NCBI GenBank assembly: GCA_013178005.1
Contig: JABLXL010000027.1
Location: 1 to 46,153 of the forward strand
Reading direction: 5' to 3'
From: Actinomycetota bacterium
GTDB taxonomy: Bacteria; Actinomycetota; Geothermincolia; Geothermincolales; RBG-13-55-18
Length of the DNA: 46,153 nt
Numbering within the stretch: position 1 is the first letter of the stretch; the number at the start of each line of letters is the position of its first letter. Shown one piece after another: positions 30,650 through 45,365 of this stretch. The translations under genes and the position numbers were made by a program. The notes beneath the pieces are model-generated. The model was given only the letters and a program-made list of their open reading frames with translations, had not been told where the DNA came from and made no database searches.

Positions 30650-31249
30650 GTGACGCGGATACGGGACCAACGGGAAAGCAGGAACGCATCCGGCGTGGAA
30701 GGGGAGAACGCCACGATCGGGAGCGAGAAACAAGCGCCGGAGGAAACGGTAAACATAGGCGTCGCGGAGTATTGCGTGACCGACAATTCGCACGTGCTGG
30801 CGAGCTACGGGCTGGGGAGCTGCGTGGGAGTGGTTCTCTATGACGAGAAGCGCCGCATAGGGGGCATGGCACACGTTATGCTGCCGGACTCCACCGCCAT
30901 CACCAAGAAGGGCAACCCGGGCAAGTTCGCGGATACGGCCATCAAGGCGATGGTGGAGGAGATGGAAAAGCTGGGCTCGCGACGCGCCGATATCAAGGCG
31001 AAGATCGCCGGGGGGGCGTGCATGTTCACCATCCCCGGAGCCGTCAACCCCCGCAACGTGCCCGGTCCCTGCCTGGGAATGCAGATCGGGGAGCGCAACG
31101 TTGAGGCCGCCAAGGCGGCGCTGCGCGAGCACCGCATCAGGTTGGTGGCGGAGGATACCGGGGGCAATTACGGAAGGACAATGCGCTTCGAAATATCCAG
31201 CGGCAAGGTCACCATAAGCTCCATCAAGCACGGCAGGAAGGAGCTATGA
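30650..31249 (+). CDS. cheD: Chemoreceptor glutamine deamidase CheD
   Basis: CheD deamidates receptor glutamines and binds CheC. The catalytic Cys lies in SYGLGSCVGVVLYD and the His in GGMAHVMLPDS. Conserved CheD segments KIAGGACMF and GRTMRFEISSGKV follow. The first ~30 residues are a charged, unconserved extension, so the true start may be downstream of GTG 30650. Its ATGA stop/start overlap with the next gene indicates coupling. Confidence 0.95.
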   Translation: MTRIRDQRESRNASGVEGENATIGSEKQAPEETVNIGVAEYCVTDNSHVLASYGLGSCVGVVLYDEKRRIGGMAHVMLPDSTAITKKGNPGKFADTAIKAMVEEMEKLGSRRADIKAKIAGGACMFTIPGAVNPRNVPGPCLGMQIGERNVEAAKAALREHRIRLVAEDTGGNYGRTMRFEISSGKVTISSIKHGRKEL

Positions 31250-31593
31250 AAGAAGAGCCCAAGGGCGAGCGGGTGGAGGTGTCGCGAGAAGCCATCGCGG
31301 CCCTGGCGGCGCAGGCAGCCGGAGAGGTGGAGGGCGCCGAGGTCTGCCAGCCAAAGGCGGTGGAGAGCATCACCTCGCGGGTAAAGCGAGAGTTCGTCCA
31401 CAAGGGGATCAAGGTCAGCCGGGACGATTCCTCCTACCGGCTGAGCGTCTATCTCAAGGTGCGCTACGGCGCCCACATACCCTCCGTGGCGCGCGAGGTC
31501 GCGGGCAAGGTCAAGGAATACGTGGAAGGGCTCACCGATCTCCCGGTCGAGGAGGTCGAGGTAGTCATTGAGGACGTCGAGCCGCCGGCCTGA
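31246..31593 (+). CDS. Asp23/Gls24 family protein
   Basis: The 115-residue protein fits the Asp23 family: VEVSREAIAALAAQAAGEVE at the start, KGIKVSRDDSSYRLSVYLKV in the middle, and a helical IPSVAREVAGKVKEYVEG with a final EVVIEDVE strand. Family members are linked to the cell envelope and stress in Gram-positive bacteria. It overlaps cheD by four bases, an unusual setting. Its stop TGA abuts the stop of the convergent pseudo-amidase gene with no base between. Confidence 0.87.
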   Translation: MKEEPKGERVEVSREAIAALAAQAAGEVEGAEVCQPKAVESITSRVKREFVHKGIKVSRDDSSYRLSVYLKVRYGAHIPSVAREVAGKVKEYVEGLTDLPVEEVEVVIEDVEPPA

Positions 31594-32583
31594 TCACGTC
31601 TCGCCGGGGCGAAAATAGGCTATCGCCGCCTCCACCAGGGCGGGGTAAAGCACGGTGACGGGATCCACGCCGCTACCGTATTCCACGATCACACAGGGCA
31701 TGCGTGTCTCCCTGAGCATGGGGTAGCTCCTGGCCTCTGGGGCCGCGATCTGCGCCGCAGCGTTTTCGCCCAACCCCTCCCACACAAGGGACGCCAGGCG
31801 CTTCCCTCGTGGCGAAGAGTAATCGCCGCTGCCGAAATAGTACACCCGCGCTCCGGGTTCCCCCGATGCGCGGAGGCAGAGAACGATATCCGCGTCGCAG
31901 TCATTCGCCTGGCGCGCCCTTTGCCCTTCGGGGATTCCAGAAGATGGGCCGCCTGTTATCACCACCACCATGCCATGCGACCTCAAGTCTCCCGCCGCCA
32001 GGCGCACGGCGTCCTCGGCGCTGCCGCTCTCCTCCCCGGCGTCCAGCACCACCGTGCGCCCGGCAATGCCGCGCGAGGAAAGGTCCTCTATGGCCTCGTG
32101 GACCTCGGCCACGCTGGTGTCCTTCAGGGCATGGCGCAGCCGCTGGAGGTAGGACAGAGTGGAGGAGCCGGCGATGCCGTCCACCGGAAGGCCCACATTG
32201 TGCTGGAAGGCGCGCAAAGCCCGGTCGGTATCCCGGCCAAAGATGCCGTCCTCGCGCCCGGCGTTGAAGCCCAGACGGTTGAGGTAGCGCTGCAGCTCGC
32301 GCACGTCGTCCCCGCGGAAAGGGGGAACGCGGAGGTAGAGGAAACGGTCGCCGAGGCGATAGGAGGCCTCGACCAGCTCGTGCCAGGTGTTCTCGTCCAC
32401 CCTCCCGTCCGCGGGCAGGCCTCGCCTTGACTGGAACTCCCGCACCGCTCCGGCAGTGCTCTCTCCGTAATGCGCTTCACGCATCTCCGCCTCGAGCCCT
32501 GGCGGCGTGTAGCCGAGCTCGAAGAGCCGCTTTTGCACATCGCTCACGGCGGGACCGCGGTCCCCTGGCGAAACGACGCGCAC
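31594..32583 (-). CDS. CwlM-like degenerate amidase with two peptidoglycan-binding domains
   Basis: Residues ~5-72 and ~85-150 are two peptidoglycan-binding type 1 domains (GPAVSDVQKRLFELGY; DDVRELQRYLNRLGF). Residues ~176-325 have the amidase_3 fold, but zinc ligands are missing. Where active enzymes have D-P-G-H, this has DAGE (E184). Where they have S-I-H-A-N, it has CLRAS (R238). Only the late glutamate (VIVEYG, E301) remains. No signal peptide is present, so it should be cytoplasmic. Mycobacterial CwlM has the same architecture and cytoplasmic location and regulates MurA, which is my proposed analogy. GTG 32583 has AAGGAGGA inside the end of the kinase gene. Confidence 0.85.
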   Translation of the reverse strand: MRVVSPGDRGPAVSDVQKRLFELGYTPPGLEAEMREAHYGESTAGAVREFQSRRGLPADGRVDENTWHELVEASYRLGDRFLYLRVPPFRGDDVRELQRYLNRLGFNAGREDGIFGRDTDRALRAFQHNVGLPVDGIAGSSTLSYLQRLRHALKDTSVAEVHEAIEDLSSRGIAGRTVVLDAGEESGSAEDAVRLAAGDLRSHGMVVVITGGPSSGIPEGQRARQANDCDADIVLCLRASGEPGARVYYFGSGDYSSPRGKRLASLVWEGLGENAAAQIAAPEARSYPMLRETRMPCVIVEYGSGVDPVTVLYPALVEAAIAYFRPGET

Positions 32584-32586
32584 TTC

Positions 32587-34683
32587 TCAATCCTCCTTGT
32601 GCGCGGGAAGGGTGAACTTGAAGGATGACCCCATGCCCGCCTCGCTCTCCACCCATATGCGCCCCCCATGCCCCTCGACGATCCCCTTGGAGATGACCAG
32701 CCCCAGGCCCAACCCTCCCGCCGAGCGGGTGGAGTCCGTTTCTACCTGGTAGAACATGGTAAACAACTTTCGCTGCTGCTCGAGGGGTATGCCGGGGCCG
32801 TTGTCCCTTACCGCTATCTCCACCCAATCGGGATCCTCCGCGACGCGGGCCGAAACCTCTATCTCTCCCCCTGGAGGGGTGAACTTGATGGCGTTGCCGA
32901 TGAGGTTTTCCAGCACCTGGTGGATGCGCCACACGTCGACGCTCACGGGAGGCAGGCCTTCGGGCACGGCGTGCCGGAGCGCGAGACCCGCCTGCTCCGC
33001 CCGGCCCTCGTATTCGGAGACGACGTTTACGATCAGCCCTTCCACGGGAGCGGGCCACCTCTCTCCTACCAGGCGCCCTTCCTCCAGCCGGGTGACGTCG
33101 AGAAGGTCGTTGATGATCTTGGTCATCTGGTCCGCGCGCGCGTTCATGATCCTGATCTTGTCCATCTGGAAGGGGGCGAGGTCGCCCAGCTCGCCGAACT
33201 GGAAAGCGTCCACGTAGCCTTTGATGATGGAAAGGGGGGTGCGCAGCTCGTGGGAGGCTATGGCGATGAAATCCGACTTCATCTTGTCCAGCACCGATAG
33301 CTCCTCGTAAGCCTTTTCCAGGTATCTGTGGCTTTCCTCTACCATGGCTTGCAGGCGACGCCGTTCGCTCAGGTCATGGGCGATGCCCACGATGCCGGCG
33401 AACTCGCCGGAGCGGAAAAGCGGCGCCGAGCTGATCTGCACCGGCAAAACGCCGCCGTCGTCTCGCCGTAGCAGGGTCTCGAAAAAGACCTTCTCCCCCC
33501 GGCGACGCCGTTCCAGCATGCGCTCGATCTTGGGCGCTTCCTCGGGCATTACGATGTCGAATGGACCTTTTTGGAAAAGGTCCCCGCTGCTCCGCAGCCC
33601 CAGCATGTCCAGGAAGGCCTGGTTGCAGAAGGAGAACTTGCCCTCCGAGTTCATGGCATAGAAGCCGTCGTTGAGGCTTTCGATGAGCAGGTTGAGGTAA
33701 TCGGTGGTTTCCGCCAGGCGCCGCTCCAGGCGCACGTACTCCGTCACGTCCTCGAACAACAACAGGGCCTCGCGCACCGTTCCGGCCTCGTCCACCAGGG
33801 GATGCAGGCGCACGCGGTGGAAAAAGTCCATCCCGCCCACCACCTGGTGCACGCGCGGCTGCTCGAAGGAGCGCCCCTCGATGAGCACCCGCCTCAGTAT
33901 GTGCTTCCAGTCGGGGCGGAACTCGCTGGGCATGACGTCCAGGGCGGGAAGGCCCGGAACGCTGCCCTCGTCCAGGCCGCAGGAGTCAAGGATCCAGCGC
34001 ATCATGGACTGGTTGCATCGCACCAGACGGAAGTTGCGGTCGAGGACCGCTATCTTCACCGGCACGCTCTCGAACACGCCCGCCTCGCGCTCCGACGCCT
34101 CCAGCAACACCGCGCGCTCCCACGCCTCCTGGGTGATGTCCTGGATGACCACGAGCACGCTGCGCGATCCCCCGTCGCCGGGCAGCGCGGAAAGCCATAC
34201 CCGGCATACTCCGGAATGTTTTTCCAGGTAATATTGCTCGTGTTGTATCTCCAGCGGGGCCTCGGATTCCAGGGCTTGTTTCAACACGGGCGTCCAGGCC
34301 CCGAAATAAGGGGGGAGAAACACCTCGTCGAGCTTCCTGCCCGGGAGCCCCTCGGCCGCCTCGCCGTTCAGGGGTATGAATTCCGCCGCCCGCAGGTTGG
34401 CCTCCAGGATGTAGCCTTCCGGGCTCACCAGCAAGGCGGGGGTGGGTATCGCCTCGAGGAAGGAGGAGCGATCGCCCCGCCGGGGTCCGGTGGTGGCGGG
34501 GCGCGCCGGGCCACGCCCGCGCGACGCAGGGAAGGAGGCGAGGGCGCACAGGGCGGCAAGGACCAGAAAGACGATAGTGGCGATCCGCCAGCCCGCCAAG
34601 GCGCAGAGCAGCGCCAGGCCCATGAGCGACAGGGCGGCCGAAACCGCCAGGCGGGCAGTCCGGTTTCCGGCCTCACCCCTCAA
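32587..34683 (-). CDS. Membrane PAS-domain sensor histidine kinase
   Basis: Two membrane helices (about residues 10-32 and 35-53) are followed by three PAS domains (~75-185, 195-320, 330-445). The HisKA domain has His478 in FIAIASHELRTPLS. The GHKL ATPase has VLENLIGNAIKFTPPGG, RDNGPGIP and GGLGLGLVISKGIVEGHGG. TTG 34683 is chosen because GGAGGG lies eight bases upstream; it overlaps the preceding membrane-protein gene by 11 bases. An ATG at 34764 would overlap by 92. The partner regulator is likely the receiver at 35371. It is followed after three bases by the pseudo-amidase. Confidence 0.93.
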   Translation of the reverse strand: MRGEAGNRTARLAVSAALSLMGLALLCALAGWRIATIVFLVLAALCALASFPASRGRGPARPATTGPRRGDRSSFLEAIPTPALLVSPEGYILEANLRAAEFIPLNGEAAEGLPGRKLDEVFLPPYFGAWTPVLKQALESEAPLEIQHEQYYLEKHSGVCRVWLSALPGDGGSRSVLVVIQDITQEAWERAVLLEASEREAGVFESVPVKIAVLDRNFRLVRCNQSMMRWILDSCGLDEGSVPGLPALDVMPSEFRPDWKHILRRVLIEGRSFEQPRVHQVVGGMDFFHRVRLHPLVDEAGTVREALLLFEDVTEYVRLERRLAETTDYLNLLIESLNDGFYAMNSEGKFSFCNQAFLDMLGLRSSGDLFQKGPFDIVMPEEAPKIERMLERRRRGEKVFFETLLRRDDGGVLPVQISSAPLFRSGEFAGIVGIAHDLSERRRLQAMVEESHRYLEKAYEELSVLDKMKSDFIAIASHELRTPLSIIKGYVDAFQFGELGDLAPFQMDKIRIMNARADQMTKIINDLLDVTRLEEGRLVGERWPAPVEGLIVNVVSEYEGRAEQAGLALRHAVPEGLPPVSVDVWRIHQVLENLIGNAIKFTPPGGEIEVSARVAEDPDWVEIAVRDNGPGIPLEQQRKLFTMFYQVETDSTRSAGGLGLGLVISKGIVEGHGGRIWVESEAGMGSSFKFTLPAHKED

Positions 34684-35044
34684 CCCCGGGACCCTCCTTC
34701 CGGCGGGAGCGGTAGAGCTCGCCCCATATCCAGCCCCAGTACCTCGCGGTGGCGATGAGGGCAAAGGTTATGGCTATCCCCATGGGGATGGAGGCCACGG
34801 CGATCTTTATGATCAGGCCCGTGCTCGGGTCAGGATCCGGGAGGCCCCACGCGCCGGTGAGCAGAAGGATCCAGGCGGCGGGCAGGGGAGCGATGAAGAA
34901 GAAAAGGGAGACATAATAAAGGCGGTAGTACGGGGGGAGCTCCAAGGCCTGGCCCAGGCGCTTGCCCATGGCGCCGAGCAGGAGAAGCAGGACCGCCACG
35001 GAGAGGGGGCCGACTATGTAGAGAGCCGAGGATAGGTAATTCAT
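34673..35044 (-). CDS. Small three-helix membrane protein B
   Basis: I do not recognise a family. The 123-residue protein has three predicted membrane helices (about 5-26, 41-66, 76-100) and a basic C-terminal tail (YRSRRKEGPG). ATG 35044 overlaps the stop of the preceding gene as ATGA. Position between another three-helix protein and the histidine kinase suggests they form one membrane sensor complex. That is inference. Confidence 0.8.
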   Translation of the reverse strand: MNYLSSALYIVGPLSVAVLLLLLGAMGKRLGQALELPPYYRLYYVSLFFFIAPLPAAWILLLTGAWGLPDPDPSTGLIIKIAVASIPMGIAITFALIATARYWGWIWGELYRSRRKEGPGVEG

Positions 35045-35343
35045 CTTCCCATCATCAGGCGGTAAGCGCGGTAAACCACGACGAGCAGGATCAGCCCGGA
35101 TATCATCGGCCAGACAGCATACCAGAGCTTGATGGCCACGATGGAGTCGGACATGGAATAGATGAGGGTGCTTGCCCCCATGAGCACGAAGAACACCGGG
35201 AGCAGGAAGTAAAGCGTTCTGCCCCCGAACTTGTGCTCCGCCATGCGGCAGATTCCAGCGAAATACACCAGCAGGACGGCGGTGGCGGAGGTATTGTAGA
35301 ACCAGAGGAAAAGAGACAGCGTCTTCCACCATTCGTTCGACAT
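35041..35343 (-). CDS. Small three-helix membrane protein A
   Basis: The family is not recognised. About 100 residues with three predicted helices: WFYNTSATAVLLVYFAGI, LYFLLPVFFVLMGASTLIY and AVWPMISGLILLVVVY. Aromatic-rich loops separate them. ATG 35343 with AAAGGGGG upstream is preferred over a TTG one codon earlier. It is translationally coupled to protein B by a four-base overlap, so the pair is probably made in equal amounts. Confidence 0.8.
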   Translation of the reverse strand: MSNEWWKTLSLFLWFYNTSATAVLLVYFAGICRMAEHKFGGRTLYFLLPVFFVLMGASTLIYSMSDSIVAIKLWYAVWPMISGLILLVVVYRAYRLMMGR

Positions 35344-35370
35344 CAACGCCCCCTTTCCGCGCCCCTAGCC

Positions 35371-35772
35371 TTAAGGCGACCGCTCTCCCTCTCCCCTCCG
35401 CTCGTCCAGTATGCGCCCGACCTCGCTGAGCAGCTCCTGCTTGCTGAAGGGCTTGGTTATATAGCCCGCGGCCTTCATCACCGAGAGGCCGATCATCTTG
35501 TCGATGTTCTGCGTGCGGGCGGTGATAAAAGCCACCGGTATTTTGCGGGCTTCAGGGTCGTTCTTGATGCGCCGCAGCACCTCCCAGCCGTCGATGCGCG
35601 GCATCATGATATCCAGCAAGATGAGGTCGGGCTTTTCATGAAAGGTCTTCTCCAGGGCTTCCTCGCCGGAGAAGGCCGAGATGGTGGCGTAGCCGGCGTT
35701 GCGCAGGAAGAGCTCGATGAGCTCCACCATCTCCCGGTCGTCGTCCACGATCAGGATCTTGTGTGCCATCAT
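35371..35772 (-). CDS. Stand-alone receiver-domain response regulator
   Basis: The 133-residue protein is a receiver only: acidic cluster ILIVDDD, phospho-acceptor Asp54 in LILLDIMMPRIDG, Thr in FITART, and Lys in YITKPFSKQE. No output domain is present, so it must act by protein contact, for example on the KaiC-type ATPase just upstream or within a phosphorelay with the PAS kinase downstream. ATG 35772 or 35769 may serve as start. Confidence 0.93.
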   Translation of the reverse strand: MMAHKILIVDDDREMVELIELFLRNAGYATISAFSGEEALEKTFHEKPDLILLDIMMPRIDGWEVLRRIKNDPEARKIPVAFITARTQNIDKMIGLSVMKAAGYITKPFSKQELLSEVGRILDERRGEGERSP

Positions 35773-35782
35773 TCCACCCCCT

Positions 35783-36580
35783 CTATGACGAGGACTTGCC
35801 CTTCTTGCCGAACACTTCCACGAAGGCGTCCACCTCTCGCTTGCGCGGAAGCCCGGAGAGCACTCCCTCCCGGTCCGCGAACGGCTCGCCGATATCTATG
35901 CCCCCGGCGCCGATGCGGAACTCCCGGATCCTTTTATCATGGGAGCTGGCGCGCTGCTTGAGCACCATGATGGCACGGCCGATGGAGGAATCCAGTTCAA
36001 CGTAGCGCAGGATGATCACCGCGTCGACCAGGTAGGATATACCGTATTGGGCCGCGGCCATATCTCCCGTGATGTCGGGGTCCTCCTGGGTGACCACCGC
36101 GGTCAGGCCGTGACGGAGGAGGGCGTTCACGAAGGTGAAGGCGATCTCCCTCAGCTTTACCGGGTCACGCGTCAGCCTTTCCAGGTGCGAGATGGAGTCT
36201 ATGAACACCCTCTTCGCCCCCAGCTCCTCCACCATGGTGTCGAGCAGTCCTCCAGGCGCCTGTGCCTGTTCGAAAAAGATCTCCGGCGAGGTGAAAAGGA
36301 TGCGCAGCATCCCGCTCTTTTCCATCTCCGGAAGGTCGAAGCCCAGGGAGGACGCGTCGCGCAGGAGTTTTTTAGGGAAATGCTCGAAGGTCACGATCAG
36401 GCCGGGCTCGTTCATCTCCGTGATGCCGCGGGAGATGAACTCCAGGCCCAGGCAGGTTTTGCCTGTCCCGGGGGCGCCGGTGACCAAGGTCACCGACCCC
36501 CGCAACAGGCCGCCGTCCATCATGGAGTCCAGCTCCGCGTTGCCGGTGGAGACCCTTTCCCCGAACTCGCTCACGCCCAT
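35783..36580 (-). CDS. KaiC/RAD55-type RecA-fold ATPase
   Basis: A single KaiC-like domain of 265 residues. Walker A is GAPGTGKT at 35-42, preceded by the typical GNAELDSMMDGGLLRGSVTL, and Walker B is RVFIDSISHLERL near 142-154. Later segments include VVTQEDPD and IIVLRYVELD-like strand sequence (VIILRYVELD), then KQRASSHDKRIREFRIGAGG. Cyanobacterial KaiC has two such domains; single-domain versions commonly occur beside two-component proteins, with roles mostly unknown. First gene of the six-gene minus-strand cluster, 10 bases before the receiver gene. Confidence 0.92.
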   Translation of the reverse strand: MGVSEFGERVSTGNAELDSMMDGGLLRGSVTLVTGAPGTGKTCLGLEFISRGITEMNEPGLIVTFEHFPKKLLRDASSLGFDLPEMEKSGMLRILFTSPEIFFEQAQAPGGLLDTMVEELGAKRVFIDSISHLERLTRDPVKLREIAFTFVNALLRHGLTAVVTQEDPDITGDMAAAQYGISYLVDAVIILRYVELDSSIGRAIMVLKQRASSHDKRIREFRIGAGGIDIGEPFADREGVLSGLPRKREVDAFVEVFGKKGKSSS

Positions 36581-36682: not shown

Positions 36683-36956
36683 GTGATCGTGCTAAGCGGG
36701 GAGCTAGCGGTGCCCTGAACCCGCAATCCGCTACAGCGGGGCCGAATCCCCAACTGAGGCTCTCCGGTCTTGAGTATTGCGCACAGGCAAGTGGCGTTGA
36801 AGGTCGGGTCCTGCGCAACGGGAACTTGTGAACCCCGTCAGGTCCGGAAGGAAGCAGCGGTAAGCAAATCTTCTCGTGTGCCGCAGAACAACCTGTCCGG
36901 AGCCAACTACCCGTGTAGCGCTCGGGGTCGGGAGTCGAGGAAGGGTGCACGATCAC
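36683..36956 (+). ncRNA. ffs: Signal recognition particle RNA, large (Gram-positive) type
   Basis: The conserved apical domain GTCAGGTCCGGAAGGAAGCA with AGCGGTAA lies at 36837-36864. The 5' domain has the Alu-type sequence GGTGCCCTGAACCCGCAA. The ends pair perfectly: GTGATCGTGC (36683-36692) with GCACGATCAC (36947-36956). The length of about 274 nt is that of the Bacillus/actinobacterial large SRP RNA rather than the ~114 nt 4.5S form. It precedes dnaX, a common arrangement. Confidence 0.95.
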
Positions 36957-42991: not shown

Positions 42992-44005
42992 ATGGAAGAG
43001 AGCGCGCGCGGAGGCGGGGGGGAGGGCGTTCTTCCCGGGCTGCCACGATGCGCCTGGCACCCCAACGAGGCGGCAACCGCCGTATGCGTGGCCTGCGGGC
43101 GCCCGGTTTGCGCTAACTGCGCCCGGATGATTTACGGCCGGCATTTCTGTCCCGACTGCGCCGCTGCGATTCACCTCCCGCCCCCAGTTCCAAAGCCCGC
43201 GTACCGAGAGCCATGGAGCCAAGGACAGGGAGCCAGCTGGACTACGGCCCCCGCGACCGTGCCCCCTGCCACCGCCCCACTTGCTCCGCCGTCTCCGCCA
43301 AGCAGCGAGGGCGAGAGGAGGTGGTGGAGGGCTGACTGGGGGTTAGCGGAAGTGCTGGCTGCATGGCTGGTGATCTTCGGTATCTACAGCGTGCTGGGGG
43401 TGGTGCTTATGGTCTCCACCGATAACCCCCTGTTCTACAATTACCTCGCTTACGCGGTTTTTCTCTGTCCGCTCATCGCCCTGAGCGTCGTGCTCATCAC
43501 GCGACGACATGGCCGGGGGCGCGAGGAGCTGGGTTTGCGTTGGGGGAATCCCGCCCGCACCGCGTCCTTCGGGTGGCTGGGGGCGCTGGCGGCGGTGGGC
43601 ATGAGTTACGCGGCATATTTCCTCGTTTACCTCGCTTTCTACCTCCTGGCTGGACGAGGCCCGGTGAGCGGGGAGAGCGAGCACATGCGGGATCTGGGGG
43701 GCGGATACCTGGCGATGACGGTGCTGGTGGTCGTGGTGCTCGCGCCCGTGTTCGAGGAGCTGTTCTTCAGGGGGCTGTTCTACCCCGCGTTGCGCAGACG
43801 GGTAGGGGTTTGGGGGGCTATAGTAATCAACGGCGTGATATTCGGGGCCTTGCACATGCAGCCCCTCTTCATGCTCTCCCTGGTGCTGGTGGGCATGGTC
43901 CTCGCTTACCTCTACGAGAAGACGGAGTCACTTGCCGCGCCGATACTGGCGCATTCGTTGTATAACCTTGCGGTGGTGCTGATAACCATCCTCAGCGGAG
44001 GGTGA
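42992..44005 (+). CDS. Zinc-ribbon/CPBP intramembrane protease, copy 1
   Basis: Residues ~14-55 hold a B-box-like zinc ribbon (CAWHPNEAATAVCVACGRPVC with CPDC). A Pro-rich linker leads to a membrane domain of about seven to eight helices. All CPBP (Rce1/Abi-type) motifs are present: EELFFRGLFYPALRRR, FGALHMQP and AHSLYN. Such proteins are glutamate-type intramembrane proteases; substrates are unknown here. The zinc ribbon is predicted to be cytoplasmic and may recruit substrates. Confidence 0.92.
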   Translation: MEESARGGGGEGVLPGLPRCAWHPNEAATAVCVACGRPVCANCARMIYGRHFCPDCAAAIHLPPPVPKPAYREPWSQGQGASWTTAPATVPPATAPLAPPSPPSSEGERRWWRADWGLAEVLAAWLVIFGIYSVLGVVLMVSTDNPLFYNYLAYAVFLCPLIALSVVLITRRHGRGREELGLRWGNPARTASFGWLGALAAVGMSYAAYFLVYLAFYLLAGRGPVSGESEHMRDLGGGYLAMTVLVVVVLAPVFEELFFRGLFYPALRRRVGVWGAIVINGVIFGALHMQPLFMLSLVLVGMVLAYLYEKTESLAAPILAHSLYNLAVVLITILSGG

Positions 44006-44042
44006 CCTGGGCGACCGGGCGGCAGAAAGGGCAGGCGAGAAA

Positions 44043-45365
44043 ATGCAGCGCCCGTATTGCGAGGAGCACGCGGAAAGGCCGGCGGTGGCCCGCTGTGCGG
44101 GCTGCGGCAAGTACCTGTGCCGGGAGTGCCTCTTGGAGGTGGGGGCCCGCCCCTGGTGCCGCGAGTGCGCCGCGCAAGCGTCCACCCCCGCCGCCGGGCC
44201 CGAAAACGCGCCGGAGGTCGTGGGCACTTCGAGGGAACCGGGGTTTCCCCCCAGCCCTGAAGAGGAGTCGCAGCCATTTGGAACGCGATCCCAGCTATCT
44301 GGGGAGGCGCCTCCCGCTGGCGCTTGGGCCGTGGGCTTTTCGCCAGACGAAGTTTTTCGCCCTCCGTCCATGAGAGAAACGGGCCATCCGGATGCGTCCG
44401 GAGAGCCGCAGAACGCCTCGTCTCCAACGGCCATTAACCCTCCGGCGACTCCGTCAGGCGGCGGTCCGGTAGCGGCAAGGGTGGTGGCTACATGCGCCTA
44501 CCATCCCGGCGTGAGGGCGGTGACGAGGTGCGTGAGGTGTGGAGCCCTCATCTGCGCGGGGTGCAGGAGGGTCGTGTCGGGGAAGACCGTGTGCGAGACG
44601 TGCCATCGTGCCAGCCATGCCGGAGTCACGGCCCAGGCGGGGCTTCCGGCGAGCGGAACCGGGCCTTCTTCCGCCGTTGTGCCCTGGAAGCTGTGGCCGG
44701 GGCTTGCCTTCCTTCCGGTGCCATTCCTCCTCAACGGCCTCATGACCTACATGATGCGCCAGGGCGACGAGATATCCGTGGGGGCGGCCCAGCTCTTCAT
44801 CTCCCTGCTGTTGTACTCGTCGACCCTAGCCTTCGCGTTCCTGGTCGCCTACCGCTACGGCAGCCCCCTGCAGGAGGTGGGGATGAACGGGCACAACCTC
44901 CCCTCCAGCCTGGGATTGGGGCTGGTGGGCGGGTCCCTGGCTTTCTGGCTGGCCGTGGCCGCAGGCTTCATGTCCGCGGGGATGTTCCGCGGCCTGGAGA
45001 GCGTTGAGAGGTGGCTGCAGGGCTTCTTCGACGTGAACGTGAAGAGCCTCACCGGGGCCGACGTCTTCATCGCCGGGCTGATCATCATCGTCGCCGCGCC
45101 CATATGCGAGGAGATCTTTTTCCGCGGATACCTGTACCCGGCCATGCGCAACCGCATGGGGATGTGGGGCGCCGTGTTTCTCAACGGCTTCCTCTTCTCC
45201 GCCGTTCACTTCAGCGTGTTCGGGCTCATCGGAAGAACGCTGGCCGGGGCTATCTTCTGCCTCCTCTACGAATACAACGATAACCTCTGGTCCCCTATCA
45301 CCGCCCATGCGCTGAACAATTTCGTCGCCTTCTTCCTGCCCATCGTGGTCCTCTGGGGCTCATGA
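44043..45365 (+). CDS. Zinc-ribbon/CPBP intramembrane protease, copy 2
   Basis: This 440-residue protein is a longer paralogue of its upstream neighbour. It has two B-box-like zinc ribbons, at ~6-42 (CEEHAERPAVARCAGCGKYL...CREC) and ~150-192 (CAYHPGVRAVTRCVRCGALI...CETC), separated by a low-complexity linker. The membrane domain carries the CPBP motifs CEEIFFRGYLYPAMRNR, FSAVHFSVFG and AHALNN. Tandem duplication followed by ribbon duplication is the likely origin. Confidence 0.92.
   Translation: MQRPYCEEHAERPAVARCAGCGKYLCRECLLEVGARPWCRECAAQASTPAAGPENAPEVVGTSREPGFPPSPEEESQPFGTRSQLSGEAPPAGAWAVGFSPDEVFRPPSMRETGHPDASGEPQNASSPTAINPPATPSGGGPVAARVVATCAYHPGVRAVTRCVRCGALICAGCRRVVSGKTVCETCHRASHAGVTAQAGLPASGTGPSSAVVPWKLWPGLAFLPVPFLLNGLMTYMMRQGDEISVGAAQLFISLLLYSSTLAFAFLVAYRYGSPLQEVGMNGHNLPSSLGLGLVGGSLAFWLAVAAGFMSAGMFRGLESVERWLQGFFDVNVKSLTGADVFIAGLIIIVAAPICEEIFFRGYLYPAMRNRMGMWGAVFLNGFLFSAVHFSVFGLIGRTLAGAIFCLLYEYNDNLWSPITAHALNNFVAFFLPIVVLWGS

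Follow-up and report, generated by a model that had tools for sequence, protein, structure and literature searches.

The five genes that precede cwlM in the 46,153-nucleotide stretch of DNA analysed here (the window) probably constitute an independent membrane KaiC/His-Asp module, which was inserted beside an older cwlM gene and now co-expresses it, without CwlM being its dedicated output. The features of the locus, in the order in which the six leftward genes are read, are as follows.

35783..36580, minus strand: KaiC-type ATPase, single domain (PF06745, 1.8e-48)
35371..35772, minus strand: stand-alone receiver (PF00072, Response_reg, 1.4e-27)
35041..35346 (or from an ATG at 35343), minus strand: TM1, 100-101 aa, three-helix membrane protein, no family above cut-off
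34673..35041, minus strand: TM2, 122 aa, three hydrophobic segments and a C-terminal YWxWxWxEL motif
32587..34677, minus strand: histidine kinase with two N-terminal membrane helices, PAS repeats, HisKA and HATPase_c
32592..32598, minus strand: cwlM ribosome-binding site AAGGAGG, within the last kinase codons (K-E-D)
31594..32583, minus strand: CwlM-type cytoplasmic pseudo-amidase, two PG_binding_1 stretches and Amidase_3 without the zinc site
36687..36952, plus strand: bacterial large SRP RNA (RF01854, 220.9 bits), divergent from KaiC, forming the right border of the insertion

An earlier note on this DNA had described six closely packed leftward open reading frames, for a KaiC-type ATPase, a receiver, two membrane proteins (here TM1 and TM2), a PAS kinase and a CwlM-like protein, and all six were recovered at positions 31594-36580. 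The junctions are indeed tight. KaiC and the receiver are separated by 10 bp and the receiver and TM1 by 24 bp (27 bp from the ATG), TM1 and TM2 overlap by 4 bp (ATGA), TM2 overlaps the kinase gene, and the kinase gene ends 3 bp before cwlM. The cwlM ribosome site was likewise found inside the kinase end, where AAGGAGG at 32598-32592 coincides with the final K-E-D codons. A gene-order search recovered KaiC-RR-TM1-TM2-HK-CwlM in 13 relatives of family f1, so the arrangement is not specific to the window. Counting the window, the order is maintained in 14 of the 14 f1 genomes with a readable locus, up to contig ends; in G010 a contig end cuts off KaiC, which sits on another contig. With start codons picked automatically across these 14 genomes, 12 have a kinase–cwlM gap of 2 or 3 bp (the exceptions being L043, with 85 bp, and L048, with -4), the 4 bp overlap of TM1 with TM2 is present in 12, and TM2 and the kinase gene overlap in 13. 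A G-rich ribosome site lies within the final kinase codons in most f1 relatives. In Geothermincolaceae the cluster can be regarded as a conserved row of genes coupled in translation.

All six genes are under purifying selection, with dN/dS values of 0.04-0.26 (window against three relatives), and this, together with the recurrence of the order in 13 relatives, indicates that the cluster is more than a chance arrangement. However, f1 conserves the flanking 15-20 kb, from the che genes through dnaX and asd, to the same degree, and order conservation is therefore weak evidence for joint function. A promoter and terminator scan of the region gave nothing above shuffled background, which is itself weak evidence. 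The kinase–cwlM junction is no looser than the others in the operon and persists throughout the family, an observation that sits uneasily with the explanation preferred here. The window CwlM is 79% identical to that of the same-genus locus L031, from Ca. Solincola daggyaiensis, and the host genome, a 3.6 Mb assembly, belongs to Ca. Solincola or lies close to it, in the Geothermincolaceae, within a deep-branching part of the Actinomycetota.

The KaiC-type protein has 265 aa, one domain and an intact Walker A motif (GAPGTGKT), and is most like the CII half of cyanobacterial KaiC, its best PDB matches being KaiC CII domains. Its identity across the 13 relatives is 59-92%. In our alignment, the positions that we take to be S431 and T432 (S. 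elongatus numbering) are occupied by Ser and Tyr. The receiver belongs to the slowest-evolving of the six genes, and its residues D10-D12 (acidic), D54, T84 and K107 are invariant in 15 aligned sequences. The kinase matches PAS_4 (three stretches), HisKA (3.7e-16) and HATPase_c (4.7e-32), and carries the phosphoacceptor motif SHELRTPL. The two-component hallmarks (HisKA phosphoacceptor His, ATPase domain and receiver Asp, D54) are all present, and kinase, receiver and KaiC each have intact catalytic motifs. A Pfam search found no output domain elsewhere in the operon.

TM1, whose predicted structure has three helices (pLDDT 86.6), and TM2 gave no confident Pfam or NCBIfam family, and a fused TM1-TM2 form was sought and none found. 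Among 396 Actinomycetota genomes, the two proteins occur only in Geothermincolales and in G206, a genome of another class. The earlier note had seen in them a split membrane sensor. In G206, however, they accompany KaiC while the kinase has a heme-type sensor of its own (it carries Tll0287-like and HAMP domains). That TM1 and TM2 track KaiC, and not one given kinase sensor, argues against the split sensor; they look like KaiC partners and not like halves of a kinase sensor.

The CwlM-like protein begins at once with its peptidoglycan-binding domain (PG_binding_1, two stretches, 2.2e-38), the N-terminus having no hydrophobic segment or signal peptide, and continues with Amidase_3 (2.1e-7). The predicted fold matches Amidase_3 structures with Z of 18-20; on this model, the Amidase_3 fold is retained despite loss of the zinc site. 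The zinc columns read E, gap, R, E in the window, as opposed to H-E-H-E in most sister families, so that the amidase is predicted from its residues to be dead, as had been proposed. Members of f1 keep at most one of the four zinc residues of an active Amidase_3 (H-E-H-E), and two or three of the four positions are lost throughout the order Geothermincolales: the columns are E/A/P-gap-R/Q-E in f1, P-gap-C-E in f2 and N-gap-H/I-E in f3. They are H-E-H-E in f4, f6 and many other families, H-E-H-C or H-E-H-L in f5, and R/L-E-R-D in f30, whose sequences also have a PTGT tail. Since the sister families f4 and f6 retain all four ligands, the loss is separate from the mycobacterial one. Within CwlM, dN/dS is 0.09-0.11 for the peptidoglycan-binding part and 0.24-0.31 for the pseudo-amidase part; the dead domain is therefore still constrained. 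Within the class, zinc-site loss is mainly confined to the module-bearing order, which could mean a joint functional change and in that respect speaks against our preferred explanation.

Mycobacterial CwlM is controlled via a C-terminal phosphothreonine tail with a PTG/TGT motif (PMC4946905). This motif is absent in f1-f6 and present in the f30 controls, and the window CwlM does not have the tail. Class members without the module lack the tail as well, and the signalling genes can therefore not be held responsible for its loss. Of 98 genomes sampled from the whole phylum, 92 had a CwlM match, in most cases one at full length, and the gene is single copy in the host genome. The host genome also encodes two neighbouring PASTA kinases (L160), of which one is of PknB type, and has a MurA gene; PASTA is present in all 31 class genomes. 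With a PknB-type kinase and MurA at hand, and a tail loss that does not track the module, the suggestion that a His-Asp relay controls CwlM instead of Ser/Thr phosphorylation was not upheld. A dead CwlM is already known (Boutte et al.); one that also lacks the tail is a variant of that.

The history of the locus can be read from the sister families f4-f6 of the class, where cwlM, mostly with an intact zinc site, has cheD on one side and dnaX on the other, and no signalling genes beside it. This arrangement makes cwlM the older resident. In L062 the SRP RNA is placed between cwlM and dnaX, and in the window it lies between KaiC and dnaX. The sister-family arrangement and the position of the SRP RNA in the window therefore indicate that the five genes entered the locus between cwlM and the SRP RNA. 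Gene order places this insertion in the ancestor of Geothermincolales. The reverse history, with loss of the module in the sister order, is possible and needs an older origin.

Nor do the six genes behave as the single unit that had been proposed, since the five signalling genes occur without an adjacent cwlM in three genomes and cwlM occurs without them in the sister families. In G016 and G017, which represent two genera (family f3), KaiC-RR-TM1-TM2-HK adjoins SRP RNA-dnaX (L128, L129), and cwlM is found on a separate contig close to asp23-cheC (L049, L051), with the che genes away from the module. In G206 the order is KaiC(end)-TM1-TM2-HK-RR, followed by rpsF-ssb, with cwlM on a different contig. 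In G015 (f2), TM1 has an early stop, TM2 is truncated and the kinase has lost its PAS part and contains in-frame stops, while KaiC (58%), the receiver (73%) and CwlM (48%) are still open. Sequencing errors were considered as the source of these lesions and are unlikely, given several independent stops and a truncation. The genomic comparison shows the module and cwlM to be separable, joined over the long term in one family and apart in relatives.

If the module is independent, the PAS kinase would autophosphorylate and hand the phosphate to the stand-alone receiver. The phosphorylated receiver would then bind the KaiC ring and change its ATPase state or its partner, with TM1 and TM2 presumably holding KaiC at the membrane. 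In Geothermincolaceae cwlM would be the last gene of the module message, its level following that of the module through co-transcription, and CwlM would regulate the supply of peptidoglycan precursors without catalysis, as in other members of the phylum.

Comparable KaiC clusters were found elsewhere. Families f24 and f73, of other Actinomycetota, have two small membrane proteins (TMa and TMb) after KaiC and usually then a winged-helix protein. These clusters resemble the window in having KaiC and then two small membrane proteins, but the winged-helix protein replaces the kinase and receiver, and the membrane pairs are not detectably homologous (profile comparison of TM1/TM2 with TMa/TMb, on shallow alignments). 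In one unrelated genome of f73, G335, a DUF5658 protein and then cwlM come after a KaiC-membrane-membrane-wHTH cluster. That a second KaiC cluster runs into cwlM is another observation at odds with the explanation we favour. A second KaiC in the host genome was considered as a further case with the same partners and rejected; a small winged-helix-like open reading frame lies beside it, and no kinase was found adjacent.

The cyanobacterial KaiABC clock with SasA/RpaA also has a KaiC-type ATPase beside a kinase and a receiver. Its double-domain KaiC contrasts with the single domain of the window protein, in which the T432 position is presumably Tyr, and the window receiver lacks a DNA-binding domain; neither KaiA nor KaiB was found among the operon genes. 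Archaeal KaiC-like ATPases have been presented as signalling hubs (Makarova, Galperin and Koonin 2017, as related in PMC5847659), and in that account they are encoded with, or fused to, His-Asp components. By comparison with what is related there, the window module is bacterial, has a single CII-like domain and a fixed pair of small membrane proteins, and shows no fusion. Systems that combine KaiC with His-Asp parts are thus already known, and the composition with paired membrane proteins, which was not found in the literature searched, is apparently undescribed. Literature searches found no report of CwlM together with KaiC and no paper naming Geothermincolia. A bacterial KaiC module with clear boundaries and relatives makes a signalling role for single-domain KaiC testable.

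Mycobacterial CwlM (PMC4946905, PMC6180346, PMC12723410) shares with the window protein two peptidoglycan-binding domains, a zinc-less Amidase_3 with Arg at the third zinc position, the lack of a signal peptide, a single copy, and a genome with a PASTA kinase and MurA. The window protein differs in having no C-terminal PTG/TGT tail, in its separate zinc loss and in its KaiC/two-component neighbourhood. This second, separate loss of the CwlM catalytic site, outside the mycobacteria-like clade and without the tail, separates the 'dead amidase' from the 'PknB-controlled tail'.

A different reading makes CwlM the real output in Geothermincolaceae, with the phosphorylated receiver or KaiC binding the pseudo-amidase and setting MurA or MurJ activity in place of the lost tail. 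The 2-3 bp kinase–cwlM gap in 12 of 14 genomes, the absent PTG/TGT tail, the loss of the zinc site across the whole module-bearing order and the lack of any other output domain in the operon would all fit, as would G335, a differently built KaiC cluster upstream of cwlM. Yet both parts persist in G016 and G017 though split, G015 keeps CwlM and loses the kinase, the tail is equally missing in class members without the module, and a PknB-type kinase is in the genome. Moreover, within the class of G335, KaiC and cwlM are together only in G335 among the genomes, and families, with both genes. A rough estimate, assuming random gene placement and about eight independent arrangements, puts the chance of coincidence in G335 at ∼1%, which mildly raises the odds of a KaiC–CwlM link and is why we still give this control some weight, while considering CwlM an unlikely output. 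It is similarly doubtful that Geothermincolaceae CwlM has moved from Ser/Thr-kinase control to control by membrane-bound KaiC and a His-Asp relay; if it had, a KaiC switch would set peptidoglycan precursor supply in this family.

It is also rather improbable that the module merely sits beside cwlM in a very stable region, with no shared regulation or function. The entire che-cwlM-module-SRP-dnaX-asd stretch is conserved in the family, and the adjacency of module and dnaX is at least as persistent as that of module and cwlM, G016 and G017 keeping dnaX and losing cwlM. The overlapping or nearly overlapping junctions and the ribosome site in the kinase gene nevertheless point to one message, and the lack of a promoter-like site in the scanned region weakly agrees. 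Finally, the convergent che operon (CheB, CheA, CheC, CheD) is the next neighbour in the family, and the receiver might feed it, the module then serving chemotaxis. We regard this as very improbable: no che gene was found beside the G206 module, the module lies away from che in G016 and G017, and the sister families have che genes without the module.

Natural loss of the kinase has occurred in G015, a member of another family of Geothermincolales, where the KaiC, receiver and CwlM genes remain open on either side of decayed genes for the kinase and for the two small three-helix membrane proteins, TM1 and TM2. This locus and those of two further genomes are as follows.

L050:7950-9400 (G015), decayed TM1, TM2 and kinase genes
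L130:806-2401 (G206, of another class), kinase of the related KaiC-TM1-TM2-kinase-receiver module, with a Tll0287-like sensor and a HAMP domain replacing the PAS repeats
L154:6316-9721 (G335, an unrelated genome), genes upstream of cwlM and in its orientation, encoding KaiC, a pair of small membrane proteins, one winged-helix protein and one DUF5658 protein

The Tll0287-like sensor of the G206 kinase bears CxxCH.

The source genome also carries a second KaiC paralogue (57%) at G000:C4:6185-7372 (L079:6185-7372), followed by a small winged-helix-like ORF with no Pfam match of its own. The recurrence of this pair in relatives (L131-L133), together with its reversed order in G255, G061, G327 and G206, suggests a KaiC-winged-helix transcription switch.

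Other features were seen within the window.

36687-36952, + strand, bacterial large SRP RNA, between KaiC and dnaX
42992-45365, two adjacent ORFs combining a B-box-type zinc finger and a CAAX protease (Rce1-like) domain
31246-31593, Asp23-family gene, at the end of the che operon

The Asp23-family gene and the end of cheD share 4 bp, an unusual pairing that is retained across the family.
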